A stretch of 64,000 nucleotides of DNA from an uncultured Bacteroidales bacterium (GTDB taxonomy: Bacteria > Bacteroidota > Bacteroidia > Bacteroidales > P3): positions 62,001 to 126,000 of the forward strand of contig CALUMK010000002.1 of the NCBI GenBank assembly GCA_944321735.1. Reading direction: 5' to 3'. Positions 9,673-52,379 of this stretch are shown piece after piece. The translations under genes and the position numbers were made by a program. The notes beneath the pieces were generated by a model. The model worked only from the letters and a program-made list of their open reading frames with translations, made no database searches and was not told where the DNA came from. The first letter of the stretch is position 1; each line of letters starts with the position of its first letter.

Positions 9673-10395
9673 ATGATACTGCAAGTAGTTGCCAATAATC
9701 CGGCCAATACGGGAATTCCGATGATTTGGCTGATTTTCGGGGCGCTGATGATCCTGAGCTTCATTGTCCAGGCGAGCCTTAAACGAAAATTCAACCGCTA
9801 TGCCAAAGTGCCGTTGCCATACGGCATGACCGGCAAGGATGTGGCGGAAAAGATGCTTCATGACCACGGCATCAACGATGTGAGCGTGGTCTGCATTCCG
9901 GGCATGTTGTCCGACCATTACAACCCGGCAACCAAGACGGTGAACCTTAGCCAAGGGGTCTATAGCGGCAACAGCATTGCTGCCGCTGCGGTGGCGGCTC
10001 ATGAATGCGGCCATGCCGTGCAGCATGCCACGGCTTATTCCTGGCTCAAGATGCGTTCGGCCTTGGTGCCTTTCGTCAGCTTCAGCGACCGTATCGTGAT
10101 GTGGATCCTGCTGGCCGGCATCCTGATGGTGCAGTCTTTCCCGCAATTGTTGTTGCTGGGAATCCTGCTTTTCGCTGTCACCACCTTGTTCAGTTTCGTC
10201 ACCTTGCCGGTTGAAATCAACGCCAGCCAGCGAGCGGTGGCCTGGCTCGACAATGCCGGAATCGCCACGGCCGAAACCCGTCCTATGGCCGTCAGCGCAT
10301 TGCGGTCGGCCGCTTATACATATGTGATTGCGGCTTTGACTTCGTTGGCGACGTTGTTGTACTATATTTTAATTTACCTCAACAACCGGGAATAA
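9673..10395 (+). CDS. Membrane zinc metallopeptidase (YugP type)
   Basis: This 240-residue integral membrane protein carries a zincin motif HECGH at residues 110-114, preceded by a region typical of the Zn_peptidase_2 (YugP) family. Hydrophobic segments lie at about residues 12-32, 120-165 and 205-235. The physiological substrate is unknown. The PLPYGMTGKDVAEKML and LSDHYNP stretches are characteristic of the family. It lies 21 nt after cysS and is probably co-transcribed. A 206-bp inverted-repeat element starts directly at its stop codon. Confidence 0.9.
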   Translation: MILQVVANNPANTGIPMIWLIFGALMILSFIVQASLKRKFNRYAKVPLPYGMTGKDVAEKMLHDHGINDVSVVCIPGMLSDHYNPATKTVNLSQGVYSGNSIAAAAVAAHECGHAVQHATAYSWLKMRSALVPFVSFSDRIVMWILLAGILMVQSFPQLLLLGILLFAVTTLFSFVTLPVEINASQRAVAWLDNAGIATAETRPMAVSALRSAAYTYVIAALTSLATLLYYILIYLNNRE

Positions 10396-10599
10396 AAGCA
10401 TTTTGGAGGCGGTCTGCTTCGTTGCGAGCCTTGCGCGGCTTGGTCACGTACAAAGGTACGCTCCCGCGCTTGGCTCAATCGCGTGCCTTGCACTTCATCG
10501 CTCAAAATAAGTTTACTGGGTGCGGGGCGGTGTATAGAAGTACGCTCCCGCGCCGCGCGTCGGCTCGGCGTCTCGCATTCCATCCTCCAAAATGCTTTT
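10394..10599 (+). repeat. Stop-codon-abutting palindromic element 1 (206 bp)
   Basis: A perfect 16-bp inverted repeat, AAAAGCATTTTGGAGG at 10394-10409 and its complement at 10584-10599, bounds this element. The left arm overlaps the last two bases of the zinc peptidase stop codon. Inside is the core hairpin GTCACGTAC-AAAG-GTACGCTCC (10443-10464), preceded by CTTCGTTGCGA, both shared with the element at 52258. The same core occurs in the element at 14167. Short reading frames inside are by-products of the repeat. Confidence 0.85.
10468..10527 (+). repeat. 60-bp direct repeat, copy A
   Basis: This 60-bp unit, starting GCTTGGCTCAATCGCG, recurs at 10620-10679 with one mismatch. Copy A lies inside palindromic element 1. 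In both copies it is soon followed by GTACGCTCC. Confidence 0.85.
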
Positions 10600-10619
10600 A
10601 TTGAAGAACGAGGTGACGG

Positions 10620-10679
10620 GCTTGGCTCAATCGCGTGCCTTGCACTTCATCGCTCAAAATAAGTTTACTGAGTGCGGGG
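10620..10679 (+). repeat. 60-bp direct repeat, copy B
   Basis: This is the second copy, 59 of 60 bases identical to 10468-10527, lying outside element 1 and followed at once by GTACGCTCC (10680-10688). It looks like a partial duplication of the element, lacking its outer arms. Confidence 0.85.
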
Positions 10680-10745
10680 GTACGCTCCGGAGGGGGTGTG
10701 GAATGATTTTGGTTGAAGTGGGGTATCGCCTGCCGATTTATTTTG

Positions 10746-10753
10746 TATCTTCG
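10746..10753 (+). promoter_or_regulatory. -7 box upstream of ilvE
   Basis: TATCTTCG fits the TAnnTTYG -7 pattern and would give a leader of about 65 nt. No clear -33 box is seen. The rest of the gap from 10396 to here is repeat sequence. Confidence 0.45.
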
Positions 10754-10822
10754 CAAGGTTGTAGAAAGACGGTTTGAAGGGAAACGGATTGATTAAGAAT
10801 AAAATCTAAAATTTATATAATT

Positions 10823-11842
10823 ATGAGCCAGATTGATTGGAAAAGTTTGCCTTTCGGTTATTTCAAGACCGATTACAATGTCCGCGCTTACTACAAGGAC
10901 GGCAAATGGAGCGATCTCGAAGTTCGCGACGATGAAATGATTAACCTTCACATGGCTGCCACCTGCCTCCATTACGGTCAGGAAGCCTTCGAAGGGATGA
11001 AAGCTTTCCGGGGCAAGGACGGCAAGATCCGTTTGTTCCGTCCCGATGAAAACGCCAAACGTTTGGTTCTTTCCGCCAACGGTATCCTGATGCAGCCGGT
11101 TCCGACCGACCTCTTCATCGAAGCTTGCAAGAAAGTGGTGAAACTGAACGAAAAATTCGTTCCTCCTTATGGAGAAGGCGCTTCTTTCTACCTCCGTCCG
11201 TTGTTGATCGGTTCGGGTGCCGAAGTAGGGGTTAAGCCGGCCAAGGAATACATGTTCATCGTGTTCGGCGGTCCGGTAGGTCCTTATTTCAAGAGCGGTT
11301 TCAAGCCCGTTCCCATGCAAATCGTAAAGGACTACGACCGTGTGGCTCCGCTGGGTACAGGTCTGTTCAAGGTGGGCGGCAACTACGCTGCTTCCTTGCG
11401 TGCCAGCGAACGTGCTCACGAAGAAGGCTATTCCACCGTGTTATTCCTCGATTCCAAACAACACAAGTACATCGATGAAGCCGGTCCGGCCAACTTCTTC
11501 GCCATCAAGGGTAACAAGTACATCACGCCCGATTCCAATTCGATTCTGCGTTCCATCACCAATATGAGCTTGCAGCAGATTGCCGCCGATATGGGTCTGG
11601 AAGTAGAACGCCGTCCTATCGAAGAAGAAGAATTGGCTACATTCGACGAAATCGGCGCTTGCGGTACGGCTGCCGTTATCTCGCCCATCAGCAAGATTGT
11701 GGATCGTTCTACCGGCAAGGAATACGTGGTAAGCAAGGACGGCCAGCCCGGTCCTATTTCCACCAAGCTGTACCATGCTTTGAAAGCCATCCAGGAAGGG
11801 GAAGCCGAAGACAAGCACGGCTGGAACCTGATTCTGGACTAA
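10823..11842 (+). CDS. ilvE: Branched-chain amino acid aminotransferase
   Basis: IlvE is a PLP fold-type IV enzyme that interconverts branched-chain amino acids and their 2-oxo acids. The 339-residue length and the motif FKVGGNYAASLRA (K183 by analogy the PLP lysine), LNEKFVPPY and EEELATFDEIGACGTAAVIS are those of the eukaryote-like BCAT group. Codon use is highly biased, with few rare codons, suggesting strong expression. It is a single-gene unit with its own -7 box and a very stable terminator at 11919-11958. Confidence 0.96.
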   Translation: MSQIDWKSLPFGYFKTDYNVRAYYKDGKWSDLEVRDDEMINLHMAATCLHYGQEAFEGMKAFRGKDGKIRLFRPDENAKRLVLSANGILMQPVPTDLFIEACKKVVKLNEKFVPPYGEGASFYLRPLLIGSGAEVGVKPAKEYMFIVFGGPVGPYFKSGFKPVPMQIVKDYDRVAPLGTGLFKVGGNYAASLRASERAHEEGYSTVLFLDSKQHKYIDEAGPANFFAIKGNKYITPDSNSILRSITNMSLQQIAADMGLEVERRPIEEEELATFDEIGACGTAAVISPISKIVDRSTGKEYVVSKDGQPGPISTKLYHALKAIQEGEAEDKHGWNLILD

Positions 11843-11918
11843 TCCTGGCTCCCAGCACGGCAATGTTCTCTGCCGTTTGAATCTTGACAAGAGAAGAGGT
11901 TGCCGAGCATTTATTATA

Positions 11919-11958
11919 AAAGAGGCCGCTTCCAGCATTCGTTGGAAGCGGCCTCTTT
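11919..11958 (+). terminator. Terminator after ilvE
   Basis: A perfect 16-bp stem (11919-11934 with 11943-11958) closes an 8-nt loop. The stem ends in AAA/TTT, which supplies a short T run. The same stem could also act on leftward transcripts. Confidence 0.8.
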
Positions 11959-12015
11959 ACGTAAAAATCCTTTCTTCTCTTGTTCTCAATAGCAAACAAA
12001 GCCTAATTCTTCTTA

Positions 12016-12212
12016 AACCCAAATCGGTCATTAGACACGCCGGGGCTGTTTTCGGTTAGGAAAATGAGGCTTTCGGGCATCTTGCCCGCTTCTGTCCGCA
12101 TCCTGTTTCTCGCTACGCCTCGACGTAGCCCGCTACGCCTTCGGCTAGGCGAGAAGCATGCTGCATGACACAAGCGGGCAATCTCCCCAAAGTCTAATGA
12201 CCGATTTGGGTT
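12016..12212. mobile_element. 197-bp MITE-like element, copy 1
   Basis: A 21-bp terminal inverted repeat beginning AACCCAAATCGGTCATT (12016-12036) matches its exact complement at 12192-12212. A second copy of identical length lies at 24765-24961. The interior carries a palindrome around GACGTAGC and CCTTCGGCTAGGCGAG. There is no coding capacity. It lies between convergent ilvE and the leftward lipoprotein gene. Whether it is mobile is inferred from structure and copy number only. Confidence 0.75.
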
Positions 12213-12242
12213 AAAGGATTCTATTTCTTCTCCGTTGTACGT

Positions 12243-13658
12243 TTACTGCAAAGTGATTTGATACAAGAGGAAAGCCCAGATGTCGGACGGCGCGAGTTCA
12301 GGGACTAGGAGGAAAGGTTTCTGCCCGCAGCGTCGACCGGATTGTTCCTGCACGTAGGCCGAGATCGCGTAATATCCGGAATCGCCTTCCGTCAGGATAG
12401 CCGGAATTCGGCCTTTGAGCAGAGAGGGGCTGGAATGATAGTGTTCGGACCGGAAAGAGGTGCTTTCTTTCGGCAAGGCATTGTTGGCGGTATATGGCTC
12501 GATGGCTTCCGAGGTCAGTTCAAGGAGGGACATTGTTCGGGTAGTGGAATCTTCGGTCTGCCTTTGGTTCAATATCGATATTTCCGACAAGGAGGTCTTG
12601 GGAGGATTTTCTCGTAGCCTTTGCCAAAATTCCGTTCGGCAAGAATCCGGTGCCGGATCGATGACGGCTGCTTGGAAAAGGTCTCCCCGCCAAAAGACGG
12701 ATTCTTCAGCCAGTGGATATTCTTGCCCCAAGGCCAGCAAGGCCAGGCGGGAAGGCGTAGAGAAAGAGTTCGCTATAAGATAATTAGCCGAAAAGACGAG
12801 GTCACCCGTATTTAACTTGATCGGCTTTTCAACGGTATATTGCTTTACATGCCGCCGTACTTCATCCGGATTGGATAAAAAACGCCGGTAGGCCCATCTC
12901 CGTTCCTCTATATTGGCTTTTACCGTGTCCCGGTAGATCCGTCGGCGCAAGGAGTCGGCTTTGGCAAAAAAGAGGCTGCTGTCCTGGATACTGACATGCC
13001 GGATTCCTCCTGCCACGGCCAGGATACCTCCTCGATTAAAAAAACTTTCCGGAATCCGGACAGGTTCATGGCTTGTTCGAGGGCAGGGCATCAGTACTAC
13101 GGGATTGTTCCCGTCCTCCCAGAGCACACCTTGATAGAAAAGATACAAAGGAATTCCGTTTGCCGATAAGCTGTCCCGTCTGATTCCATCCGGCAGCGCA
13201 ATGCCGAGAGGAGACAAGTATTCCCAGGAAACCGTCTTTTTCCCATCCTCGGTTTCTTCCCTGTCCTTTTTAAGAACCATTCGTATTCCGCTGAGGTATG
13301 CTTGCGTGGTTTCCTCCTGTTTCCGTATCCAATAGGTTTTATCTTCTTCCAAACTGTCGCTTTGCAGCCAAAGGAAAAGTTCGCAGAATTTCCATTCAGG
13401 CTTGACTTGGAAACGGGAATCCAAAGCATGCGCCAGTATCGAGTAGCTGGGGTAAGGATTCGCTAGACCCGGATGTTTCCATGCCGTTCCGTTTGCCTCC
13501 ATGCTTGTGTCAGGCAGAAACATCTCGGCGAAATATTTCTTTTTGGCGTAGGGGAATTCCAAGTCTTCGATGCTTTGTTCCTGGCAGGAGCAGAGCAGCA
13601 GGAGAGCCAGGACAAATCCGAACCAACGTAGGCGGATATGATGGAAAATGTGCGGCAT
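12243..13658 (-). CDS. Hypothetical lipoprotein
   Basis: This 471-residue protein has a signal peptide ending in the lipobox LLLCSC, with acylated C25 followed by QEQS. That predicts an exported, membrane-anchored lipoprotein. Aromatic-rich segments such as PEWKFCELFLWLQ and YWIRKQEETTQAYLSGIR suggest a folded globular domain, but I recognise no family. It stands alone: the 31 bases after its stop lead to the 197-bp element, and upstream the biotin carrier gene has its own terminator. Confidence 0.7.
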   Translation of the reverse strand: MPHIFHHIRLRWFGFVLALLLLCSCQEQSIEDLEFPYAKKKYFAEMFLPDTSMEANGTAWKHPGLANPYPSYSILAHALDSRFQVKPEWKFCELFLWLQSDSLEEDKTYWIRKQEETTQAYLSGIRMVLKKDREETEDGKKTVSWEYLSPLGIALPDGIRRDSLSANGIPLYLFYQGVLWEDGNNPVVLMPCPRTSHEPVRIPESFFNRGGILAVAGGIRHVSIQDSSLFFAKADSLRRRIYRDTVKANIEERRWAYRRFLSNPDEVRRHVKQYTVEKPIKLNTGDLVFSANYLIANSFSTPSRLALLALGQEYPLAEESVFWRGDLFQAAVIDPAPDSCRTEFWQRLRENPPKTSLSEISILNQRQTEDSTTRTMSLLELTSEAIEPYTANNALPKESTSFRSEHYHSSPSLLKGRIPAILTEGDSGYYAISAYVQEQSGRRCGQKPFLLVPELAPSDIWAFLLYQITLQ

Positions 13659-13703
13659 GTGATTGATTTGAGAATCGGGGAAAGGAACGGTCGGGCAGAC
13701 TTG

Positions 13704-13744
13704 AAAAAAAGAGAGTGTGTCGGGCTTTTCTTCGGCACACTCTC
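13704..13744 (-). terminator. Terminator of biotin carrier gene
   Basis: GAGAGTGTG (13711-13719) pairs with CACACTCTC (13736-13744). On the minus strand the stem is followed by seven Ts, so it ends leftward transcription after the biotin carrier gene. Confidence 0.8.
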
Positions 13745-13776
13745 CAAGCGGTAGTTCGTTTGGCGAAGCCGTTCAG

Positions 13777-14103
13777 TTAGCAGACCGGGCTGAATTCAAT
13801 CAGCAAGGCATGTTTGGGGATGCTGTGGCCTTCTTCCACGCAGATGGACTTGACAATGCCGTCCACAGGGGCCAGCAGCTCGTTGTCCATTTTCATTGCA
13901 TCCAGAATCAGAACCTTGTCGCCCTTTTTCACCTTGTCGCCCACTTTGACGCAAATCTGGCGGACCGTCCCCGGCATGAAGGCCTCCATATTATAAGGAC
14001 TCACATGACGGTAAGGCGTCTTGTTCTTGTATTTGATTGAAAGCTCCGTTTCGTACTGTCCTGTAGGCAAATTCAGGCTTTCCATTTTTTCTGTTGTTTC
14101 CAT
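13777..14103 (-). CDS. Biotin carboxyl carrier subunit
   Basis: This 108-residue protein carries the biotinylation motif DAMKMDNEL with the target lysine K71, in a C-terminal biotinyl-lipoyl domain (about residues 38-108). The first 35 residues are a short linker. It shuttles carboxyl groups for a decarboxylase or carboxylase, most likely with the carboxyltransferase encoded just upstream (14296-15843). In many Bacteroidetes a membrane decarboxylase beta subunit follows. Here a terminator follows instead, so the remaining subunits, or a biotin carboxylase, must lie elsewhere. Confidence 0.9.
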   Translation of the reverse strand: METTEKMESLNLPTGQYETELSIKYKNKTPYRHVSPYNMEAFMPGTVRQICVKVGDKVKKGDKVLILDAMKMDNELLAPVDGIVKSICVEEGHSIPKHALLIEFSPVC

Positions 14104-14166
14104 TTGAAAATCAATGTGAAGTTAAGTCAAATTGAGAGGTCGAACTTTTTTTTGTTCGAATATAGG

Positions 14167-14297
14167 AAGTCAGCGTGTTAGAACGGGCAAGATGCGAAGC
14201 TGCCAAGGAAGAGGAGGCAGGAGCGTACTTCTGTACGTGACTGCCTCCGAACTCCGCAGGCAATGATGCAGATTGCCCGTTATCACGCGCTGATTTT
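14167..14297 (-). repeat. Stop-codon-abutting palindromic element 2 (131 bp)
   Basis: Imperfect inverted arms (TCAGCG...ACGGGCAA at 14170-14190 and ATTGCCCG...GCTGA at 14273-14293) bound this element, whose right edge overlaps the mmdA stop codon. In the centre GGAGGCAG and CTGCCTCC flank the shared core GTCACGTAC-AGAA-GTACGCTCC, here on the minus strand (14241-14220), that is in mmdA sense. It separates mmdA from the biotin carrier gene. Confidence 0.8.
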
Positions 14298-15843
14298 AAA
14301 ATGGGGGAAGGCCATGCTTCCGACAAGGCGCCTCCACATGCTTGTTCTTGCTCAATTCCAGCGCACGAGCCACCGCTTGGCGGGTTTCTTGGGGTTCGAT
14401 GACCGAATCCACATAACCGTAACCCGCAGCCACATACGGGTTGGCGAACTTGGCACTGTATTCGGCTACTTTTTCCTTGCGGGTTTCTTCCGGGTTTTCC
14501 GATTCCTTGATTTCCTTGCGGAAAATGATGTTGGCGGCTCCGGCTGAACCCATCACCGCGATTTCTGCCGTAGGCCAAGCAAACACGAAATCGGCATGCA
14601 AGTGGTTGGAACACATGGCAATGTATCCGCCGCCGTACGCCTTGCGCAAGATAACGGTAATCTTGGGTACAGTGGCTTCCGAATACGCATACAGGATCTT
14701 GGCTCCGTGACGGATTACCCCGGCATGTTCCTGGTCAACCCCCGGCAGGTATCCCGGCAGGTCCACGAAAGTTACCAAAGGAATGTTGAAAGCGTCGCAG
14801 TAACGGATAAAGCGGGCGCATTTGTCGGAGCTGTCCACATCCAGAACCCCGGCCATCACTAACGGCTGGTTGGCCACGAAGCCCACCGTCTGCCCGTCGA
14901 TACGGCCGAAGCCCACCACGATGTTCGGCGCGAAAAGTTCCTGCACTTCGAGAAACTGGGAATCATCGGAGATGGCCTTGATGACATGGCGCACGTCGTA
15001 AGGCTTGCGCACGTCGTCCGGGATTATGTTTTCAATCTTGTAGGTTTTCTGCGGAGCCTTAGGCGCCGTTGCTTCGGCCTTTTCACGGTTGTTGCGCGGG
15101 ATGTAGCTGAGCAGTTCCTTGATTTGCGCAAAGCATTCCTGCTCGGTCTTGGCATAGAAATGCGCGTTCCCTGTGATTTCAGCATGAGTGCGGGCGCCGC
15201 CAAGGTCTTCCTGCGAGATTTCTTCGCCCAATACCGACTTGATGACTTCCGGTCCGGTAATGAACATCTTGGAAACCTGGTCGACCACGAATACGAAGTC
15301 TGTCAATGCCGGGGAATATACAGCACCGCCTGCGCAAGGGCCTAAGATGACCGAAAGCTGCGGAATCACGCCCGAAGCCTTGGTATTGCGGTAGAAAATT
15401 TCCCCGTAACCGGCCAAAGCGCGAACCCCTTCCTGGATACGGGCGCCACCGGAATCGTTGATGCCGATCAGCGGCATCTGCATATTGATGGCGTGATCCA
15501 TGACCTTGCAGATTTTCATGGCGTGCATGAAACCGAGCGATCCTCCGGTTACCGTGAAATCCTGGGCGTAGATGCAGACCGGGCGGCCGTTTACCGAACC
15601 CGTACCGGCAACCACCCCGTCGCCAGCCAAATATTTCTTGTCCATTCCAAAATCCCGTGCCGAATGCTGGATAAAGAGATCCAGCTCCTGAAAAGAACCC
15701 GGGTCTAAGATGCTGTCGATTCGTTCACGAGCAGTGAGTTTCCCACTCTCTTTCTGCTTGGCGATGGCTTTTTCTCCACCACCAGCCATGGCCGTCTGCT
15801 TGCGTTGTTGCAAGTCGGCGCATTTTTCTTGGTTTGTAGACAT
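14296..15843 (-). CDS. mmdA: Methylmalonyl/propionyl-CoA carboxyltransferase subunit
   Basis: This 515-residue protein has the two crotonase-like domains of acyl-CoA carboxyltransferases. In methylmalonyl-CoA decarboxylase (alpha subunit) or propionyl-CoA carboxylase (beta subunit) it moves carboxyl between acyl-CoA and biotin. Typical stretches are INDSGGARIQEGV, GPCAGGAVYSPALTDF and KAYGGGYIAMCS. The paired biotin carrier gene lies downstream, separated by a palindromic element. A propionate-forming succinate pathway is the likely setting, by analogy with other Bacteroidales. The choice between decarboxylase and carboxylase cannot be made from this window. Confidence 0.93.
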   Translation of the reverse strand: MSTNQEKCADLQQRKQTAMAGGGEKAIAKQKESGKLTARERIDSILDPGSFQELDLFIQHSARDFGMDKKYLAGDGVVAGTGSVNGRPVCIYAQDFTVTGGSLGFMHAMKICKVMDHAINMQMPLIGINDSGGARIQEGVRALAGYGEIFYRNTKASGVIPQLSVILGPCAGGAVYSPALTDFVFVVDQVSKMFITGPEVIKSVLGEEISQEDLGGARTHAEITGNAHFYAKTEQECFAQIKELLSYIPRNNREKAEATAPKAPQKTYKIENIIPDDVRKPYDVRHVIKAISDDSQFLEVQELFAPNIVVGFGRIDGQTVGFVANQPLVMAGVLDVDSSDKCARFIRYCDAFNIPLVTFVDLPGYLPGVDQEHAGVIRHGAKILYAYSEATVPKITVILRKAYGGGYIAMCSNHLHADFVFAWPTAEIAVMGSAGAANIIFRKEIKESENPEETRKEKVAEYSAKFANPYVAAGYGYVDSVIEPQETRQAVARALELSKNKHVEAPCRKHGLPPF

Positions 15844-15931
15844 TGTGATGAAATTTAGTTACAACAAAGGAACAGAGGCGGGCAAAGGTTCCATTGCCGA
15901 TGCCGGGCGCTCCGCTTGTCTAATCAACCTA

Positions 15932-15963
15932 CAAAAATAGGTAATCTTGGAATAATATTGAAA
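15932..15963 (-). promoter_or_regulatory. mmdA promoter
   Basis: On the minus strand TTTC (15963-15960) and TATTTTTG (15939-15932) are 20 bp apart. The -7 box matches the consensus exactly. Predicted leader about 85 nt. Confidence 0.5.
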
Positions 15964-16002
15964 CACGGATTTATCGGTGTGAAACCCAAAAAAATACAAG
16001 AC

Positions 16003-17235: not shown

Positions 17236-17278
17236 AAACTTGGTATGGCATTATAAGTATATATAGGGGGATTTTTCA

Positions 17279-17286
17279 TATCTTTG
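17279..17286 (+). promoter_or_regulatory. -7 box of polysaccharide export operon
   Basis: TATCTTTG fits the -7 consensus exactly. No -33 box is visible at 19-23 bp. Transcription from here would give a leader of about 155 nt, longer than for most genes in the window. Confidence 0.5.
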
Positions 17287-17446
17287 CCGCTTCTTGTATG
17301 CTTCAAGGCGTGTCTTGGTGCGATTCGCTTGCGTGCGGTTCTTTGCCTCGGCGAAGATGGTGGATGCCAAGGAAAGGTTGTCCTGTTTTTGTGGCAAACG
17401 GAGAGTTCGGGTTGCGGTTTGGAGCGTGCAATTAATGGGGGGAAAT

Positions 17447-24686: not shown

Positions 24687-24751
24687 GGCGGTGTGTCAGA
24701 GTGAGTAAGATGCAAGGCCAGATTGCTCCTTATGGCACACCGCCTTTTTTT
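24687..24751 (+). terminator. Terminator of polysaccharide export operon
   Basis: GGCGGTGTG (24687-24695) pairs with CACACCGCC (24736-24744), followed by seven Ts. The 40-nt loop is long for a terminator. It separates the OmpA gene from the second 197-bp element. Confidence 0.7.
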
Positions 24752-43907: not shown

Positions 43908-43950
43908 CCCGTTTGTGTGAATTTTAACCGCGATTTAAATTCTCTTAAAA

Positions 43951-44523: not shown

Positions 44524-44538
44524 ACGGTTTTCGGAAAG

Positions 44539-45261
44539 ATGAATCGCGCGTTTTGCGTAGGGTTGGCGATGACCCTTTGTATGGCAGGCGGTGGCGTTTT
44601 GGATCAGGCAGTGGAAGCAAGGACAAGCGTGGCTGATTCTATCCCGAATCTGTCGGTCAGCAGGCTTGGTTCGGACTCTACAGCCGGGCACTTCCCGCTC
44701 ATCGACTCTTTGGGTCGAAAGGATTCCATTCAAACGTCTGTTCCTGTAAGGCCGGCATTCAAAATCGGCCATGTGCGGACGATGGAGCTCGCTAACCGTT
44801 TGCCGCAAATGGATTCTGTGATTCGTGTCCTTCAGGATTACGGACGAGAGTTGGCAGGCAATCTTAAAGCCATGACGCTTGAGTATAATAAGAAGTATGC
44901 CGAATTCCAGGCTGGGGAGGCAAGCTGGTCCGAATTGGTCAAGGAAAACAAGGAACGGGAACTGGAAGAGTTGTGGAAGCGGTTGCAAGACTTTGAGCGG
45001 CAGAGCAAGGCGGATTATGCCAAACGGAGCGAAGCCTTGATCAAGCCTTTGACGGAGAAGGTTAAATCTGCCATTGATTCTGTGGCTGCAGAAGGAGGCT
45101 TCGCTTATATTCTGGATGCCAGCAACGGTATGTTGTTCCTCGGCCCGGCGGCTGTAGATGTGACCTCTCTTGTGGAGGTCAAGTTGGGCTTGCCCGTACT
45201 TCCCTTACCGGCCAAGTCTGTATCTGATGAGAAAAAGACATATTTGAAGACCCAGAAATGA
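44539..45261 (+). CDS. Skp/OmpH-like periplasmic protein, paralogue 3
   Basis: This 240-residue protein is longer than usual. A signal-like N terminus (MNRAFCVGLAMTLCMAGGG) is followed by a Ser/Asp-rich insert of about 45 residues before the OmpH opening KIGHVRTMELANRLPQMDSV (about residue 75). A coiled coil (about 100-165) and the tail AVDVTSLVEVKLGLPVLP, shared with paralogue 2, follow. The shared tail points to tandem duplication with later divergence. It begins 15 nt after paralogue 2, and its stop overlaps the galE start (ATGA). Confidence 0.85.
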   Translation: MNRAFCVGLAMTLCMAGGGVLDQAVEARTSVADSIPNLSVSRLGSDSTAGHFPLIDSLGRKDSIQTSVPVRPAFKIGHVRTMELANRLPQMDSVIRVLQDYGRELAGNLKAMTLEYNKKYAEFQAGEASWSELVKENKERELEELWKRLQDFERQSKADYAKRSEALIKPLTEKVKSAIDSVAAEGGFAYILDASNGMLFLGPAAVDVTSLVEVKLGLPVLPLPAKSVSDEKKTYLKTQK

Positions 45262-46319
45262 AAAAAGTCATAGTTACAGGAGGTACGGGTTTCATCGGCT
45301 CCCATACGGTAGTGGAATTGTTGCAACGAGGCTACGATGTGATAGTGGCTGATGATTTGTCCAATTCCAAGGCTTCCGTAATAGACCGGATTGCCGATAT
45401 TACCGGGGAGAGGCCGATTCTGGAAGTGGTGGATTTGAGCGACCGGACGGCCTGCCTGCGTTTTTTCAAGATGCATTCCGATGCCGATGCCGTGATTCAT
45501 TTCGCGGCGGCCAAGGCAGTCGGCGAATCGGTGCTCAATCCCCTGCATTATTACAGGAACAATCTGGATTCGTTGCTCTATGTGCTGGAAGGCATGGAGA
45601 AGGCGGGATGCCGTAAATTGGTGTATTCGTCCTCTTGCACGGTCTATGGACAACCGGAACATCTTCCGGTAACAGAGGATACGCCCCGCCAGCCGGCTAC
45701 TTGCCCTTATGCCAATACCAAGCGGGTCAGCGAGGATATCCTGGCCGATATGGTCCGCGGTTATGAGGTGGGCAAGCAGAAAGGTACGCTTGAGGCGGAT
45801 TACAAGCCTTGGAAAATTCTGGCTTTGCGTTACTTCAACCCGATTGGCGCGCATCCGTCGGCGCTGATAGGGGAACTGCCCAATGGCGTTCCTAACAACC
45901 TGATGCCTTACATTACGCAGACCGCGGCAGGTTTGCGGCCATGCCTGCAGGTATTCGGCGATGATTACAATACGCCCGACGGGACTCCGATTCGGGATTA
46001 CATCCATGTCTGCGACTTGGCCGATGCCCATGTGGCCGCGATGGAATATATGGACAAGAACGGTTTCGAGGGGATGGATTATTTCAACCTCGGGGCGGGG
46101 CACGGCTACTCGGTCTTGGAGGTGATTCAAAGTTTTGAACGTTCCACCGGGCAAAAGCTCAATTACAAGATTGCCGCTCGTCGTGAAGGCGATATCGAGC
46201 AGATATGGGCCGATGCCGGCAAGGCGAACCGGCTTCTGGGCTGGGAAGCCAAGCGTACTTTGGATGAAATGACCTTGAGCGCCTGGAAATGGCAGGAAAA
46301 TTTGTCCAAGAAGATATAG
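45258..46319 (+). CDS. galE: UDP-glucose 4-epimerase
   Basis: GalE interconverts UDP-glucose and UDP-galactose, supplying sugars for polysaccharide and lipopolysaccharide. The 353-residue enzyme has the NAD-binding TGGTGFIGSHT, the catalytic pair Y151 and K155 in CPYANTKRV, the serine-rich YSSSCTVYG, and ALRYFNPIGAHPSALIGE. It overlaps the upstream skp-like gene by 4 nt (ATGA) and the downstream helicase gene by 31 nt, so the three are likely one operon. Confidence 0.94.
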   Translation: MKKVIVTGGTGFIGSHTVVELLQRGYDVIVADDLSNSKASVIDRIADITGERPILEVVDLSDRTACLRFFKMHSDADAVIHFAAAKAVGESVLNPLHYYRNNLDSLLYVLEGMEKAGCRKLVYSSSCTVYGQPEHLPVTEDTPRQPATCPYANTKRVSEDILADMVRGYEVGKQKGTLEADYKPWKILALRYFNPIGAHPSALIGELPNGVPNNLMPYITQTAAGLRPCLQVFGDDYNTPDGTPIRDYIHVCDLADAHVAAMEYMDKNGFEGMDYFNLGAGHGYSVLEVIQSFERSTGQKLNYKIAARREGDIEQIWADAGKANRLLGWEAKRTLDEMTLSAWKWQENLSKKI

Positions 46320-47710
46320 AAAGGCTGATTGCCTCGTATTTGCCTTTTGTGCCGACCCACGGACAGGCGGAGCTGATCGGGGAGCTTGCTTCCTTTATCC
46401 TTCAGTTCCGTTCGGACGTGGGTTTTGTATTGAAGGGCTATGCAGGGACGGGGAAGACCTCCGTCATCAGTGCTTTGGTCAAGGCTTTGCCGACCTTGAA
46501 CATCACGCCGGTCCTGTTGGCGCCCACCGGGCGGGCAGCCAAGGTCCTGTCCAATTATTCCGGGCATCCCGCCTATACGATTCACAAGCAGATTTATTAT
46601 TCGGAGCCGGACGAGGAGGGCCGGGTCAGTCTCAGCCTGCGGCAGAACAAGGCTCGCAATACCTTGTATATAGTGGATGAGGCTTCGATGCTGGGCGAGG
46701 ACGATTCATTGCTATTCGATTTCTTCAATTATGTGAAAAGCGGTTATCGTTGCCGGGTCTTGCTTTCGGGCGACGATGCCCAGCTGCCGCCAGTGGGTTC
46801 GCCATATAGTCCGGCATTGGATTTGGAATACCTGGCTTCCTGTTTCCCGACGCATTTTTATTCCTATTGCCTGGAAGAAGTGGTGCGTCAGGGGGAAGGC
46901 TCGCTGGTTCTGGAGAATGCGACCGCCTTGCGGCAGAAGATTGCGGAGGAGGATGCGTCCTTGCCTTTGTTTGCTATGGATTTCCCGCAGGGCAGAGCGG
47001 ACTTGGCGCGTTTGCCGGGCGAGGATTTGGAGGATGTGCTGCAAAAGGAGTATGGCAGGAGGGAACGGGAAGATGTGGTGTTTGTCACTCGGTCCAACAA
47101 GAGGGCCAATCTGTTCAATAACGAATTGAGGGGACGGATATTCGGGCTGGAGAACGAGTTGGCGGCCGGGGAACTGCTGATGATAGTCAGGAACAATTAC
47201 TTTTGGTTGCCGCAGGATTCCAAAGCGGGCTTCCTGGCCAACGGGGATATGATAGAGGTCTTGAAAGTGAAACGGAAAGAGGAGGTCTATGGTTTCCATT
47301 TTGCCGATATAGAGGTCCGGTTGGTGGATTATCCGGATGAACCGGCTTTGGAATTGAAAGTGTGGATGGAATCCTTGCATGTGGATGCGGCTTCTTTGCC
47401 TTACGAGCAGGTGCGGCAGCTGTTCGGGGCGGTGATGGAGGATTACCAGTATCTGCCCACCAAGGCTCAGCGTTTGCAGGCGGTGCGTCAGGACCCCTAT
47501 TTCAATGCCTTGCAGGTGAAGTATTCCTACGCGCTCACCTGCCATAAGACGCAAGGCGGACAGTGGCCCTGCGTGTTCGTGGATGCCGGCTATCTGAGCG
47601 AGGACATGCTGGATTTGGAATATCTGCGTTGGTTATATACGGCTTTGACCCGGACGGTGGAAAGGGCGTATCTGTTGAATTTTCCGGAGCGTTTCTTTTG
47701 CGGCGAGTGA
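46289..47710 (+). CDS. RecD-like DNA helicase
   Basis: This 473-residue SF1 helicase has Walker A GYAGTGKTS (50-58), Walker B YIVDEASMLGEDD, the motif SGDDAQLPPVGSPY, and a C-terminal 2B-like region with SYALTCHKTQGGQWPCVFVD and WLYTALTRTVERAYL. It is shorter than RecD and lacks the RecBCD-binding N-terminal domain, resembling stand-alone RecD2-like or Dda-like helicases. The exact role in repair is not predictable. Its start overlaps galE by 31 nt. No ATG closer to the galE stop preserves the N terminus. Confidence 0.9.
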   Translation: MAGKFVQEDIERLIASYLPFVPTHGQAELIGELASFILQFRSDVGFVLKGYAGTGKTSVISALVKALPTLNITPVLLAPTGRAAKVLSNYSGHPAYTIHKQIYYSEPDEEGRVSLSLRQNKARNTLYIVDEASMLGEDDSLLFDFFNYVKSGYRCRVLLSGDDAQLPPVGSPYSPALDLEYLASCFPTHFYSYCLEEVVRQGEGSLVLENATALRQKIAEEDASLPLFAMDFPQGRADLARLPGEDLEDVLQKEYGRREREDVVFVTRSNKRANLFNNELRGRIFGLENELAAGELLMIVRNNYFWLPQDSKAGFLANGDMIEVLKVKRKEEVYGFHFADIEVRLVDYPDEPALELKVWMESLHVDAASLPYEQVRQLFGAVMEDYQYLPTKAQRLQAVRQDPYFNALQVKYSYALTCHKTQGGQWPCVFVDAGYLSEDMLDLEYLRWLYTALTRTVERAYLLNFPERFFCGE

Positions 47711-47822
47711 TAACGAATAATCTGCTTCAGGCACGCCGCCTTGAGCTGGCTTGCTGTTGGGAAGCGCGCTGTCGTGGTGTTTTTCCGCGAGTTGTTGGTG
47801 TATCGGGTTCGAGCGATTTTTC

Positions 47823-47830
47823 TAATTTTG
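47823..47830 (+). promoter_or_regulatory. -7 box of nspC
   Basis: TAATTTTG matches the -7 consensus exactly, 43 nt before the nspC ATG. The nearest TTG (47795-47797) is 25 bp upstream, wider than usual. Confidence 0.45.
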
Positions 47831-47872
47831 TGAGGCTTCTGCTGAATGTCAGGAGTGTTGATTTAATTGATA

Positions 47873-49117
47873 ATGAATATGGAAACTATGCAAGCTGTAT
47901 TGCCGCTTTCGGAAACATTGCTGGAAAAGCTGCCCGATCCGACGTATGTGATTGACCGTTCGCGGATGAAACGGAATTTCGCGGTAATCCGGAATGTGAT
48001 GGACGAGACCGGGGTGGAAATCATCCTGGCTTTGAAGGGATTCTCGATGTGGAGCACATTCCCATTCTTCAAGGAGTCGGGCTTTGTGCAGTCCACGGCC
48101 AGTTCGCTTTGCGAGGCGCGTCTGGCTTACGAGGAATTAGGCTGTCCGGCTTATACCTATTCGGCAGCGTATGACGAGAACGAGATGGAAGAGGTGGCAC
48201 GGATGAGTTCGCATGTGACTTTCAATTCGTTGAACCAGTTCCATCGTTACGAGGCGATGGCTCGTGCGGCCAATCCCTGTATTTCTTTCGGCTTGCGGGT
48301 CAATCCGGAATTGCATTCGCATGTGCAGGCTATCTATAACCCTTGTTCGGCCGGTTCCCGTCTGGGGATCATGGCTTGCTACCTGCCCCGGCCGGAGGAT
48401 ATGCCCGAAGGGCTGGAGGGTTTCCATTGCCATGCCTTGTGCGAATCCGATGCCGAAGATACCTGTCATTTGATAGATGCTTTCGAGGCGCATTTTTCTG
48501 CCTATCTGCCGAGTCTGAAATGGGTCAATTTCGGCGGTGGCCATTTGATGACCCGCAAGGGCTATGATTTGGAAAAACTCAAGGCCCGTTTGAAGGTGTT
48601 CCGCCAGAAATGGCCGCATCTGAAGGTCATTCTTGAACCGGGGGCGGCTTTTGTCTGGGAAACCGGCTTCCTGCTGGGACGGGTGGAGGATATCGTGGAC
48701 AATGGCGATGTCAGGACGGCGGTCATGAATGTTTCTTTTACCGCCCACATGCCCGATTGCCTGGAGCTGCCTTACATGCCGAAGGTGTACGGGGCTATCC
48801 ATGCTTCTGCCGAAGGAGCGGAACTGGCTACCGATCCGGCCGAAGGGGAAAAGCGGCTTGGCGATTACACGCACCGCTACCGTCTTGGCGGCAACAGCTG
48901 CTTGGCCGGGGACTTCATGGGCGACTGGCTTTTCAAGGACGAGCTTAAGCCGGGGCATCTGCTGCTGTTCAACGACATGGCGCATTATACCTTTGTGAAG
49001 ACCTGTACTTTCAATGGCTTGCGGCATCCCAGCCTCTGCTTTGTAGACACGGATACGGACGAGGTGTTGTACCGGCGGGATTTCGGCTATGAGGATTTCA
49101 AGCGCAAGCTGTCTTAG
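47873..49117 (+). CDS. nspC: Carboxynorspermidine decarboxylase
   Basis: NspC is a PLP enzyme that makes norspermidine or spermidine from the carboxy form. The 414-residue protein has the PLP lysine K55 in ILALKGFSMW, the VNFGGGHLMTRKGYD loop, EPGAAFVWETG, and the C-terminal SCLAGDFMGDW with the active-site cysteine. Start ATG 47873 is preceded in frame by a TTG at 47867. The usual partner, carboxy(nor)spermidine dehydrogenase, is not in the window. A strong terminator follows at 49181-49226. Confidence 0.94.
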   Translation: MNMETMQAVLPLSETLLEKLPDPTYVIDRSRMKRNFAVIRNVMDETGVEIILALKGFSMWSTFPFFKESGFVQSTASSLCEARLAYEELGCPAYTYSAAYDENEMEEVARMSSHVTFNSLNQFHRYEAMARAANPCISFGLRVNPELHSHVQAIYNPCSAGSRLGIMACYLPRPEDMPEGLEGFHCHALCESDAEDTCHLIDAFEAHFSAYLPSLKWVNFGGGHLMTRKGYDLEKLKARLKVFRQKWPHLKVILEPGAAFVWETGFLLGRVEDIVDNGDVRTAVMNVSFTAHMPDCLELPYMPKVYGAIHASAEGAELATDPAEGEKRLGDYTHRYRLGGNSCLAGDFMGDWLFKDELKPGHLLLFNDMAHYTFVKTCTFNGLRHPSLCFVDTDTDEVLYRRDFGYEDFKRKLS

Positions 49118-49431
49118 TCGGCCTGTTGCGTCTTGTCCGTTCTGACGGGTGGCTTCGGCGGCTGGAAGGGCGAGAGGATTTCCCGGAAAGGGTGGCTGAA
49201 AAGCTGCTGTTTCCGGGATTTTTTTTGAGGAATTGTCAGGGATGGAGGCTTGGCGGCCCGACTTTCTGTCGGGAGGGGCAGGCTGGCCAGGTTCGGATGT
49301 TGAAATCTTGTTGGATAAGTATTTGAATGCACAGTGTTTTGTATTGAAATACATTATTTTATGTTGCTCTTTGATGGGCTGTTGTTTATAATATTCGTGT
49401 TGTCCACAAGGCTATCCGAGGCAAAAAAATC
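49118..49431. other. Intergenic region before nrdJ
   Basis: Besides the nspC terminator, CCCGAC (49258-49263) pairs with GTCGGG (49269-49274) around a 5-nt loop. No cobalamin riboswitch (B12 box) is recognisable upstream of this B12-dependent enzyme gene. Confidence 0.5.
49181..49226 (+). terminator. Terminator of nspC
   Basis: TCCCGGAAA (49181-49189) pairs with TTTCCGGGA (49210-49218), followed by eight Ts. Confidence 0.8.
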
Positions 49432-49439
49432 TAATTTTG
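49432..49439 (+). promoter_or_regulatory. -7 box of nrdJ
   Basis: TAATTTTG matches the -7 consensus exactly and gives a leader of about 68 nt. No -33 box is found at standard spacing. Confidence 0.45.
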
Positions 49440-49512
49440 CTGTTCCAATCCCAGCGAAAGGGCTGATAGGGGAAGTTAAGTGTGGGGTGTTGTCTAACTA
49501 TTTAAAAAAGAA

Positions 49513-52257
49513 ATGGATATGCAACAGGACTTATTCTCTGAAGTACAAACTGCAGAACAGACTGCCGCCACTTCTTACGTCAGCCCGTATGATATAATAA
49601 AGGAAGAGAGGAACAAAGTGGAAAAGATCCAAGAGGAAAGCTTGTTCGGGTCGCAACCGGCATCTCCCGTGGACAACGGAACGGTATCTGCAACGGCCCG
49701 GGTGGAAGAAAAAGTTGAAAAAGAAGAGGAACGGCCTTTGACGGAATATGCTTCGGAAGAGATTCTGGAGGCGGCTACCGAGTATTTCGGCGGCGATGCG
49801 CTGGCTGCTACGGTCTGGATGAACAAATACGCGCTCAAGGACAGCGAGGGCCGTGTCTATGAAAAGACGCCGGACGATATGCACCACCGGATTGCCCGGG
49901 AACTGCATCGCATCGAAAGCCGTTACCCTAATCCGGTATCGGAAGAGGAAGCTTTCTCCTTGATGCAGCATTTCCGCTATATCATCCCGCAGGGGAGCCC
50001 GATGGCCGGGATTGGGAACAAGTTCCAGATTTCGTCCTTGTCCAACTGTTTCGTAGTGGGCAACCGGGGCAATTCCGATTCCTACGGCGGCATCATGAAG
50101 ATCGACGAGGAGCAGGTGCAGCTGATGAAGCGCCGCGGCGGCGTGGGGCATGACCTCTCGCATATACGTCCGGCAGGCAGCCCGGTCAAGAACAGCGCGC
50201 TGACAAGCACCGGTATCGTGCCTTTCATGGAACGTTACTCCAATTCCACGCGCGAGGTGGCGCAGGACGGCCGCCGCGGCGCGTTGATGTTGAGCATCAG
50301 TATCAAGCATCCGGATTCGGAAAAGTTCATCGATGCCAAGATGGAGGAAGGCAAGGTGACGGGAGCCAACGTTTCGGTGAAGCTGACCGATGAATTCATG
50401 AAGGCAGTGGTCGAAAACAAGCCTTTCGTGCAGCAATACCCTATCGATTCCGACAAGCCTTGGTTTACTAAGGAAATCGATGCCCGCAAGCTGTGGAACA
50501 AGATTATCCACAATGCTTGGAAGTCGGCCGAACCCGGTGTGCTTTTTTGGGATACGATTATCCGCGAGTCGGTGCCGGATTGCTATGCCGACCTGGGATT
50601 CCGGACGGTTTCGACCAATCCTTGCGGGGAGATTCCTTTGTGTCCTTACGACAGCTGCCGTTTGCTGGCGCTGAACCTGTATAGTTATGTGGAAAACCCG
50701 TTCACGCCTCAGGCTCATTTCAATATGGAACTGTTCCGCAAGCATGTGCGTATTGCCCAGCGGTTCATGGACGATATCATCGACTTGGAACTGGAGCATG
50801 TGGATCGGATTCTGGCCAAGGTGGAACAGGATCCCGAGACCGGGGATGTGAAGCGGACCGAAAAGGAACTCTGGCTCAAGATCAAGAACCGGAGTTCGGA
50901 AGGTCGTCGTACCGGTTTGGGCATCACGGCCGAAGGGGATATGATGGCGGCGCTCGGCTTGCGTTACGGCAGCGAGGAAGCCATTGCCTTCTCGGTGGAA
51001 GTCCACAAGAATCTTGCTTTGGCGGCTTACGCTTCGTCGGTGGAAATGGCGCGCGAGCGTGGGGCTTTCCCGGTGTACGATACGGCTCGCGAGATGCGGA
51101 ATCCGTTCATCAATCGCTTGAAAGAGGCTGATCCGCAGCTTTATGAAGACATGTCCAAGTACGGTCGTCGGAATATCGCTTTGCTGACGATTGCTCCTAC
51201 CGGGAGCGTAAGTATCTGTACCCAGACCACTTCGGGTATCGAACCGGCATTCTTGGTGGCTTACAAGCGTCGCCGCAAGGTGAACCCGGGCGACAAGAAC
51301 GTCAAGGTGTCGTTTGTGGACGAGGTAGGGGATTCTTACGAGGAATACACGGTTTTCCATCCCAAGTTCCTGGATTGGATGCGGATCAACGGCTACAACG
51401 TGGAGGATGTGAAGAATTATACCGATCAGCAGTTGCAGGAACTGGTGGCCAAGTCGCCTTATTACAAGAGCACTTCGAACGATATCGACTGGGTGAGCAA
51501 GGTGAAGTTGCAGGGCGCGGTGCAGAAATGGGTGGATCACTCCATCAGCGTGACGGTCAATGTGCCCAATAACACCAAGGAGGAACTGGTCAGCAAGATT
51601 TACCAGACGGCTTGGGAATGCGGTTGCAAAGGCATGACGATTTACCGCGACGGTTCGCGTGCCGGGGTGCTGGTCTCGACCAAGAAGAAAGAGGAAGCCG
51701 GCATTGTGGAACATAAGGCGCCTTCCCGGCCTAAGATTCTGGAAGCGGATGTGGTGCGTTTCCAGAACGACCATGAAAAATGGATTGCCGTAGTGGGCTT
51801 GTACGAGGGGCGTCCTTACGAGATTTTCACCGGCTATGCGGAAGATTTCCCGCTTCCGGCTTCGGTTACCAAGGGTTGGGTGGTCCGGGTCAAGGAAGAC
51901 GAGAACACGCCGGCGCGTTACGACTTCGAGTTCAAGGACAAGGATGGCTACAAGGTGCATTGGGAAGGTCTTTCCCGGACGTTCAATGCGATGTACTGGG
52001 ATTACGCGATTCTGATTTCGAGCATGTTGCGTTACGGGGCCCCGCTGCCGATGATTATCGATATCATCAGCGGGCTGAAAGTGGGTTCCGACCAGATCAA
52101 TACTTGGAAGAACGGGGTGGTCCGGGCTTTGAAGAAATATATTCCTGACGGGACGATTGCCGAAAAGACCAAGTGCCCTGAATGCGGGGAACCGGGATTG
52201 GTGTACAAGGAGGGGTGTTTGGTGTGTCCGTCTTGCGGTTACTCGAAATGCGGGTGA
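49513..52257 (+). CDS. nrdJ: Adenosylcobalamin-dependent ribonucleotide reductase (class II)
   Basis: NrdJ reduces ribonucleotides to deoxyribonucleotides with a B12-generated thiyl radical and works with or without oxygen. The 914-residue protein shows SNCFVVGNRGNSDSYGG, GRRGALMLSISI, the active-site loop NPCGEIPLCPYDSC, and ITIAPTGS-type substrate-site residues (LLTIAPTGSVSICTQ). The C terminus has a zinc-ribbon-like CPECG and CPSCGYSKCG. The first 60 residues are a low-complexity acidic extension. The gene lacks TTA, CTA and TCA codons to such an extent that its antisense strand is open over its full length. A palindromic element begins at its stop. Confidence 0.95.
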   Translation: MDMQQDLFSEVQTAEQTAATSYVSPYDIIKEERNKVEKIQEESLFGSQPASPVDNGTVSATARVEEKVEKEEERPLTEYASEEILEAATEYFGGDALAATVWMNKYALKDSEGRVYEKTPDDMHHRIARELHRIESRYPNPVSEEEAFSLMQHFRYIIPQGSPMAGIGNKFQISSLSNCFVVGNRGNSDSYGGIMKIDEEQVQLMKRRGGVGHDLSHIRPAGSPVKNSALTSTGIVPFMERYSNSTREVAQDGRRGALMLSISIKHPDSEKFIDAKMEEGKVTGANVSVKLTDEFMKAVVENKPFVQQYPIDSDKPWFTKEIDARKLWNKIIHNAWKSAEPGVLFWDTIIRESVPDCYADLGFRTVSTNPCGEIPLCPYDSCRLLALNLYSYVENPFTPQAHFNMELFRKHVRIAQRFMDDIIDLELEHVDRILAKVEQDPETGDVKRTEKELWLKIKNRSSEGRRTGLGITAEGDMMAALGLRYGSEEAIAFSVEVHKNLALAAYASSVEMARERGAFPVYDTAREMRNPFINRLKEADPQLYEDMSKYGRRNIALLTIAPTGSVSICTQTTSGIEPAFLVAYKRRRKVNPGDKNVKVSFVDEVGDSYEEYTVFHPKFLDWMRINGYNVEDVKNYTDQQLQELVAKSPYYKSTSNDIDWVSKVKLQGAVQKWVDHSISVTVNVPNNTKEELVSKIYQTAWECGCKGMTIYRDGSRAGVLVSTKKKEEAGIVEHKAPSRPKILEADVVRFQNDHEKWIAVVGLYEGRPYEIFTGYAEDFPLPASVTKGWVVRVKEDENTPARYDFEFKDKDGYKVHWEGLSRTFNAMYWDYAILISSMLRYGAPLPMIIDIISGLKVGSDQINTWKNGVVRALKKYIPDGTIAEKTKCPECGEPGLVYKEGCLVCPSCGYSKCG

Positions 52258-52379
52258 TTTGTGTTTTCTGGCGGCATCTACTTCGTTGCGAAAGGTTCTC
52301 CGCTCGGTCACGTACAAAAGTACGCTCCTTCGCGTTTCACCTTTCGGCGCCTTGTATCTGCTCGCCATAAAAGCACAAA
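52258..52379 (+). repeat. Stop-codon-abutting palindromic element 3 (122 bp)
   Basis: Imperfect inverted arms TTTGTG-TTTTCTGGCG and CGCCATAAAAGCACAAA bound this element, whose left edge is the base right after the nrdJ stop. It contains CTTCGTTGCGA and the core GTCACGTAC-AAAA-GTACGCTCC (52307-52328) in nrdJ sense. The arms differ in sequence from the other two elements, while core and position are shared. Confidence 0.85.

Follow-up and report, generated by a model that had tools for sequence, protein, structure and literature searches.

Judged by their sequence, the palindromic repeats found in the 64-kb stretch of DNA analysed here (the window) are ERIC-like repeats and not a private family. 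This classification is drawn from a covariance model trained only on copies from this genome, which matches the ERIC of E. coli over positions 1-128 of 128 (33.6 bits, E 1.4e-8; the comparison covers a single ERIC locus, which two strains share) and also 26 of the 27 core-bearing genomes, including Listeria, Scalindua, Rickettsia and Porphyromonas. As to their origin, they probably represent a non-autonomous ERIC-like palindromic repeat which is read as a hairpin, placed in one direction after stop codons and provided with its arms by fold-back writing. The ERIC-like nature of the elements had not been recognised in the initial annotation.

ERIC were described around 1990 and have long been used to fingerprint E. 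coli. ERIC (IRU, RU-1) and the repeats described here have in common a length of about 127 nt, the form of one long imperfect hairpin, the intergenic location and the tip; the model match to E. coli ERIC includes the ERIC tip, GTCAC-K-TAC N4 GTA-M-GCTCC within one long hairpin, and the core is also present in the Salmonella copy printed in an excerpt of PMC2759123. The tip reads TTAC/GTAA in ERIC, whereas most copies here have GTAC/GTAC, and unlike in ERIC the outer arms differ strongly among loci. In an excerpt of PMC10969869 ERIC is given for Enterobacteriaceae and Vibrionaceae; because the present host, which is no gammaproteobacterium, lies outside these groups, the repeats are filed as ERIC-like and not as ERIC proper.

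The nearest named copies are from Bacteroidales, and within the genus of the present host the number per genome falls from 89 to 0. Model matches amount to about 60 to 127 copies per genome in Listeria, Scalindua, Fulvivirga and Porphyromonas, vary in Rickettsia (53 in genome G062, 5 in G061 and 6 in G063) and are 103 nt long in Mesorhizobium and Asticcacaulis. A tentative extension, which we hold to be possible but doubtful, is that ERIC belongs, as a single twig, to an old cross-phylum hairpin family sharing two boxes of conserved unpaired bases, installed by fold-back in one direction at gene 3' ends with no Y1 or IS630 transposase. Matching as it does both E. coli ERIC and copies in many phyla, the model makes ERIC, an enterobacterial repeat, part of a wider family, whose mover is searchable by comparing rich and poor relatives. 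A phage vehicle was considered and rejected (2.9 million viral contigs contain the exact core in 5 stretches). In the part checked of the literature containing the core letters, no title dealt with this repeat.

The tip of the repeat is TCACGTAC-N4-GTACGCTCC. A second conserved box, CnnCGTT/GCCTnG, is kept in an alignment of 78 matches in whose selection it played no part. The core of 22 nt is flanked by a left arm of 51-54 nt in 34 of 52 elements and by a right arm of similar length; conserved unpaired boxes are carried at near-fixed length. The stems are free in sequence between copies and keep their complementarity. The shared core, noted before for the three elements of the window, is confirmed by three exact matches where 0.01 are expected by chance (Table 1), and the 2.7 Mb genome contains 90 copies (up to 3 mismatches allowed) versus none in the reversed control. 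The hairpins of elements 1, 2 and 3 fold better than shuffled sequences (z -7.3, -7.7 and -3.6, respectively), and Rfam gave no match at gathering score within the window.

Table 1. Elements, remnants and associated repeats in the window
Feature	Position	Strand	Description
Element 1	10391..10602	+	composite of two elements; core 10443-10464
Element 1, outer arms	10391-10409 with 10584-10602	+	19-nt inverted repeat, 100%
Downstream repeat of the second element's right half, a remnant	10617..10692	+	63-nt direct repeat, 97%
Element 2	14168..14295	-	adjoins carboxyl transferase stop; core 14220-14241; model 110.3 bits, positions 1-128
Element 3	52256..52381	+	at ribonucleotide reductase stop; core 52307-52328; model 97.7 bits, positions 1-128
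Centre-deleted remnant	8014..8075	+	model 24.1 bits, E 3.4e-4
Centre-deleted remnant	about 24687..24744	-	from motif scan and sequence; left and right outer arms kept, middle gone
Terminator-like inverted repeat followed by T-run, 3' of element 3	52411-52424 with 52438-52451	+	14 nt, 93%

The genes upstream of elements 1, 2 and 3 encode a Zn_peptidase_2 protein, a carboxyl transferase (mmdA-like) and a ribonucleotide reductase, and all three cores are indeed oriented alike with respect to them. Genome wide, the stop codon of the left gene is found at the left end of the element, 35-62 nt before the core, in 64 of the 88 copies with a called left gene, versus 2 copies in the mirror arrangement, and the element starts within 8 nt of the stop in 51 of 74 cases, versus 10.7 expected for uniform placement in the same gaps. 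The strands of the neighbouring genes, given in core orientation for the 84 copies with both neighbours called, are ++ in 43, +- in 31, -- in 10 and -+ in none. Scatter in distance and orientation, named in the initial annotation as the mark of a chance pattern, is thus not what the genome contains, and the proposed link to stop codons stands. No supporting point was found for chance palindromes in chance positions, a reading which the counts of core copies, polarity, arm-partner fit and nearness to stop refute and which we regard as virtually impossible. Integron attC sites were considered as a possible kind of repeat; the genes upstream of the present repeats are dispersed across the genome.

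Stop-side polarity is present in further taxa beyond this genome. An orientation bias at stop codons is reportedly a trait of the Yersinia ERICs; it is clear here and absent in Klebsiella indica (2 vs 2, of 30), where placement is far less regular. Gene orientation is unbiased overall in Listeria (++ 6, -- 10) and in the mixed set outside this genome (++ 24, -- 26). TA at both ends together with a TA target duplication is typical of ERIC. In the present genome TA..TA ends occur in 23 of 88 copies, AA giving 39 and CG 31, so that TA is not distinct, and the terminal TA of the element is the TA of the stop codon in 15 of 63. That the repeats insert into the stop-codon TA was rejected as unsupported, the stop-codon mix being the same as that of other genes. 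Between arm length and stop-codon position there is at most a weak correlation (r = 0.13, with 890 of 5000 shuffles as high; 287 of 5000 for nearness to the stop), and with arm length nearly fixed an origin of the arms as copies of host sequence around the stop codon is likewise unsupported.

It had been noted that the outer arms differ between copies while remaining self-complementary, and this holds well beyond the window. At 112 cross-phylum loci the arms pair with their own partner and not with that of another locus (median 16.5 vs 0.5), the fit exceeding the 95th percentile of the control at 93 of them, and covariation of arms is seen between loci. Orthologous arms of sister species present another picture, with 15 mismatches, 3 G-U pairs and 1 compensated change, in a small count which excludes two rearranged loci and includes four elements of this genome twice, once for each relative. 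For the outer arms of A1 the figures are 43 G-U pairs versus 199 mismatches, making G-U about as rare as by chance. Internal deletions and recombination between copies are also seen at orthologous sites.

These data bear on the two readings left by the initial annotation, i.e. a function in the mRNA 3' end or an insertion guided by gene ends. As a 3'-UTR RNA device the hairpin, starting a few nucleotides past the stop codon within the footprint of the terminating ribosome, would have its outer arm melted at termination and would couple ribosome traffic to processing or stability of the mRNA, with selection keeping placement and orientation. The tight, one-orientation positioning at stops agrees with this, as does the case of Yersinia, in which ERIC is reported to destabilise upstream transcripts depending on its orientation, a ribosome-exposed RNase E site being involved (excerpts of PMC2229807 and PMC10969869). 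Co-transcription with an effect on mRNA is a trait of ERIC; by analogy, the present repeats may affect mRNA. The loss of pairs without compensation in orthologous copies and the near-chance rarity of G-U speak against a strongly selected device and for arms complementary at birth. We therefore consider the device rather unlikely; of the two readings insertion fits better, the conserved mRNA device being further disfavoured by the terminator data that follow.

That the repeats are intrinsic terminators alike by coincidence is very improbable. They are long hairpins 3' of stop codons, and a run of T5 is found at the right arm in 15 of 86 versus 7 in the neighbouring stretch, but 71 of the 86 have no such run, the unpaired boxes are conserved, the length is fixed, and element 3 is followed by a separate terminator-like repeat. 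The latter corresponds to the terminator previously placed after element 3; it is absent from the list of the consensus terminator scan because its loop exceeds the length which the scan allows. Downstream terminator-like hairpins show no strand preference, with 8 of 58 on the correct strand and 8 on the wrong one. No more credible is it that a Y1 or DDE_3 transposase moves the repeats as REP-type or IS630-type elements, even if they are similar to other bacterial MITEs in size and hairpin form and RUP is tied to IS630-Spn1 (excerpt of PMC2229807). The mover search, covering these two families, found neither Y1 (PF01797; control matches in 5 of 14) nor DDE_3 (PF13358; control matches in 3 of 14) in 13 genomes of the same genus, which are 76-98% complete.

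According to the fold-back origin favoured here, a DNA process would read the folded hairpin via its conserved unpaired bases, and copies would land directly 3' of stop codons in a single orientation. One arm would be written as a fold-back copy of the other, giving new copies with matching arms, resident copies would afterwards decay, and certain genes would use a stop codon supplied by the element as their end. Copy number with polarity, the model match to E. coli ERIC, the conserved second box, arms fitting their own partner, covariation between loci, one-sided decay, and deletions and recombination at orthologous sites support this origin, while the lack of distinct TA ends, the lack of polarity in Klebsiella indica, the unbiased gene orientation outside this genome and the lack of a clean empty site count against it; none of four candidate empty sites was decisive, and no movement was observed. 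The mechanism by which ERIC moves is given as not elucidated in an excerpt of PMC2759123, and the stop-codon polarity offers a direct handle on it. Orphan right halves outnumber left halves in own loci (33 vs 6, chance motifs included) and in 851 kb of G001, G011 and the window (36 vs 9; reversed-sequence control 10 vs 2). This excess was dropped as evidence, most of the orphans listed in the 851 kb resembling chance motifs.

Among other repeats, the Rickettsia palindromic elements (RPEs) are known within coding frames, unlike the intergenic repeats described here; compared by description alone, they are similarly palindromic, and Rickettsia genomes carry model matches. Excerpts of PMC2229807 give a size of 105-146 bp for the palindromic RPE. 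By description alone, the alphaproteobacterial repeats Bru-RS, of 103-105 bp, and CIR, of about 110 bp, resemble in size the 103-nt matches of Mesorhizobium and Asticcacaulis, but CIR has two stem-loops (same excerpts). YPAL/RU-2 of Yersinia is palindromic and has target sites spanning or adjoining dyad symmetry (same excerpts), and is set apart by its description, at about 168 bp. REP/BIME also form numerous intergenic palindromic copies; they differ in their 20-40 bp and GTAG or CGTC tags (excerpt of PMC3733652) and in the Y1 transposase, absent here.

Element 1, previously taken as one palindrome, has a real core and real outer arms but is a rearranged composite: lodged in the first element is a second element's right half (to about 10517), after which the first resumes with its own right half at about 10531; the model matches 10391-10517 and 10531-10569. 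Orthologues are found in G011, in intact form, and in G001. The two centre-deleted remnants had been missed in the earlier reading. The model scan of the window left the one at about 24687 unmatched. The site of the other holds a full element in G011, and the upstream FtsX-like gene terminates on a TGA (8024-8026) of this remnant.

The core GTCACGTAC-N4-GTACGCTCC, which we take to be the ERIC core, occurs three times in the window against 0.01 occurrences expected in a pattern scan, and the three shared cores of the initial annotation are thereby found where it had placed them. The hairpin of each folds better than shuffled sequence, and the genes upstream encode a Zn_peptidase_2 protein, a carboxyl transferase and a ribonucleotide reductase. 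The whole genome (G000; 2.71 Mb in 39 contigs) holds 90 copies at up to three mismatches; the reversed core pattern, as a control, gave no match in it. Genes around all 90 copies were called from codon usage, by a script whose training set was 30 long frames of the window. In core orientation the strands of the left and right neighbours are ++ in 43 copies, +- in 31, -- in 10 and -+ in none, with six copies lacking one neighbour (++ versus --, p = 6e-6). The left gene heads towards the element in 78 of 88 copies, and its stop lies 35-62 nt before the core in 64 of the 88 (45 of these at 48-54 nt); the mirror window on the right side is occupied in only two. The element starts within 8 nt of the stop in 51 of 74 copies; if placement within these gaps were uniform, 10.7 would do so. 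Placement at stop codons thus holds genome-wide, and the random scatter that would have spoken against it is not seen. The stops at elements are TAA 35, TAG 16 and TGA 13, and other genes at these loci end with TAA in 40 cases, TAG in 16 and TGA in 17; in five copies the gene enters the left arm and stops on a TGA where the conserved GTGTGATAA stands.

In copies whose stop falls at the end of the arm, the left arm is 51-54 nt long in 34 of 52, and arm length shows at best a weak relation to the stop (r = 0.13). For alignment, 79 of the 90 copies passed a script requiring paired arms and enough flank, and five more (tandem, chimeric or odd) were excluded by hand, leaving 74. At 25 pairs, chosen by us with partial use of the RNAalifold consensus for this alignment, 88.7% of cells are paired against 69.6% in shuffles, a share flattered by the selection of copies for paired arms and by hand. 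The covariation score is 0.494 (shuffled 0.169), and two-sided changes occur at 19 of the 25 pairs (shuffles 16.8; 19 reached by 9 of 500), including all eight pairs of the outermost helix. Conservation extends to the unpaired positions ATC/ATC, TTC/CTC and TCA/CTC. Two types of outer arm are seen, one with GTGTGATAA and an AT-rich one with TAAAACG, and some arms are intermediate between them. Four copies (L014, L021, L037, L051) share an extra stretch (~GAGATTTATTCCAAATCCC) just past the right arm, as if forming a longer subfamily.

The elements at the ribonucleotide reductase and carboxyl transferase genes are common to G000 and its sister genomes G011 and G001; other congeners with sequence beyond these stops carry no intact element in the stretch read, and at the carboxyl transferase gene of G009 the element has lost its centre. 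The peptidase gene has two elements, arranged differently in each of the three sisters, and at locus L042 the same stop carries different elements in G000 and G011. At an FtsX-like gene the element is full in G011, centre-deleted in G000 and barely more than a left arm in G001. In 20 orthologous comparisons, a small sample with four G000 elements counted against both relatives, pairs of G000 copies were unchanged 610 times; the changed ones comprised 31 one-sided mismatches, 9 G-U, one change of both sides to a pair and two to another state. If L011 and L042 are set aside (there the relative carries another or a rearranged element), these numbers are 15, 3, 1 and 0. By our reasoning one in six one-sided changes would give G-U by chance at equal rates, and more if transitions prevail. 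As one-sided mismatches dominate and G-U is near this expectation, the pairs decay without visible selection, and this decay, together with whole complementary arms that differ between loci, suggests that complementarity arises when the copy is made.

Several rearranged copies were seen (see table). Right halves are also stacked downstream of a full element at L042, L045, L057, L064 and L076 of G000; some begin at the tip of the core, and at L042, L064 and L076 a full element X is followed by the right half of another element Y and then by the right half of X. In the longer composites ~220 bases separate the left half from the right half, and this interval contains a further repeated insert. 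In the chimeric element of L046 the arm at the first gene is an inverted right half. Where G001 has an element and the other two genomes a hairpin with a T-run, either the element was inserted into a terminator or the deletion of an element left a terminator behind.

Positions of remnant, composite and rearranged elements in the three sister genomes
Genome	Contig	Position	Observation
G000	window	8014-8075	TGA stop of FtsX-like gene within element remnant; in G001 element almost lost, stop kept
G001	C2	~130490-130713, minus strand of joined stretches	longer composite
G001	C1	~124540-124763, minus strand of joined stretches	longer composite
G001	C2	143571	element; hairpin then T-run at same place in G011 and at L012 of G000
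G011	C80	2551	two convergent genes, one element each; same genes joined by chimeric element at L046 of G000
G011	C122	near 25498	stacked right halves downstream of full element

An 86-nt piece of the ERIC consensus is present in 5375 of 5426 E. coli genomes. R1, a covariance model built from G000 alone, scores 33.6 bits against an E. coli ERIC, matching over positions 1-128 of 128 (E 1.4e-8 within its locus, 8e-6 in 753 kb), in a comparison of one ERIC place in two strains. The elements are a real, strongly ordered ERIC-like family. ERIC is described as 127 bp long, with TA termini and target duplication, in PMC2229807 and PMC2759123; the Salmonella copy printed in the latter has the core found here, but with T/A for G/C. 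The host range given in PMC10969869 is Enterobacteriaceae and Vibrionaceae, and the present family falls outside it. Literature joining ERIC with repeats of other phyla was not found in a search of open-licence papers.

An exact search for the core across 84,980 species genomes gave at least 116 stretches. By title, the matches listed include Bacillota, Alpha-, Beta- and Gammaproteobacteria, Desulfobacterales, Rickettsia, Scalindua, Verrucomicrobia, Myxococcales, Coriobacteriales, Nitrospirae, Bacteroidota and others, and the named copies nearest to ours among them are from uncultured Bacteroidales and Candidatus Pullibacteroides, which makes a Bacteroidales the probable host. By our own estimate ~15 matches are expected by chance, so that single weak loci may be chance; the arms, a feature outside the scan's selection, were therefore tested in 112 of the 116 loci, four lacking enough flank. 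The median fit of an arm to its own partner is 16.5 against 0.5 to the arm of another locus, lying above the control's 95th percentile in 93 loci and not in 19, and the left arm has a median of 53 nt. A cross-phylum alignment was made of 78 hand-picked matches; its 71 sources are E. coli and 70 of the 116 loci, with most Bacteroidota and many weak matches omitted. This alignment, which is also fitted to the model, has 89.2% paired cells (shuffles 58.4%) and a covariation of 0.656 (0.136), with no excess of pair types (80 versus 82.1 in shuffles); the second box CnnCGTT/GCCTnG is kept.

R1 has matches at E <= 0.001 in 26 of 27 core-bearing genomes, one Mesorhizobium genome having none. With at most 128 candidates scored per genome, the counts are 127 in Scalindua, 101 in an uncultured Bacteroidales, 89 in Fulvivirga, 71 and 62 in Listeria, 68 in Porphyromonas somerae, 56 in Clostridiaceae M8S5, 53 in a Rickettsia endosymbiont, 33 in Klebsiella indica and 27 in Pseudomonas viridiflava. 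Among 148 evenly drawn Bacteroidota genomes, at least 15, G000 included, and at least 3 of 83 genera have matches, a lower bound because of stricter filters and 23 scored candidates per genome. The distribution is patchy: with a looser pattern, the 13 genomes of the genus range from 89 copies in G000 to none in two. One family of the phylum (f40: G097, G102, G107, G208 and ten others, two genera only) has 1 to 19 weaker full-length matches at 28-51 bits.

Of the scan loci 95 were usable for polarity, 83 of them non-Bacteroidota, and in these 83 the stop stands at the left end in 26 and at the right in 6 (p = 5e-4), the core falling within a called frame in 20; overall gene orientation is even (++ 24, -- 26), which counts against polarity. 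Frames in all these other taxa were called by length only. Left against right, Scalindua gives 8 v 2 (n=15) and Porphyromonas 5 v 1 (n=19), three Scalindua and some Porphyromonas loci overlapping with the scan set. Among the best 30 matches each, Listeria has 9 v 0, Clostridiaceae M8S5 7 v 1 and Klebsiella indica, without polarity, 2 v 2. Taken singly, Listeria reaches p = 0.004 and the other sets p = 0.07 to 1; overall orientation in Listeria (++ 6, -- 10) lacks a matching bias and again counts against polarity. The plain core motif is on the stated strand in 28/30 (Klebsiella), 19/30 (Listeria) and 4/30 (Clostridiaceae), so these strand calls lean on the model. The stop-codon rule has a reported precedent in Yersinia ERICs, which De Gregorio et al. 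2005 reportedly found to favour one orientation at stop codons.

Homology, structure and copy number are observed, as are polar placement, internal deletion and recombination; beyond these, the copies would be mobile, their arms would be written by fold-back and some factor would read the conserved unpaired bases. Neither a Y1_Tnp nor a DDE_3 domain was found in 13 congeners. Judging from PMC2229807, an RNA effect may account for which insertions persist.

Tandem arrays spaced ~119-135 bases occur at L004 and L073 of G000 and in Rouxiella aceris (L110, up to five exact cores), Alteribacillus (L105), Lysinibacillus (L108), Sporosarcina (L152) and Coriobacteriales (L098). At L120, L134, L136, L163, L176 and L181, most of them alphaproteobacterial, the match to the model is 103 nt long, a size within the 103-105 bp given for the Bru-RS of Brucella in PMC2267715.
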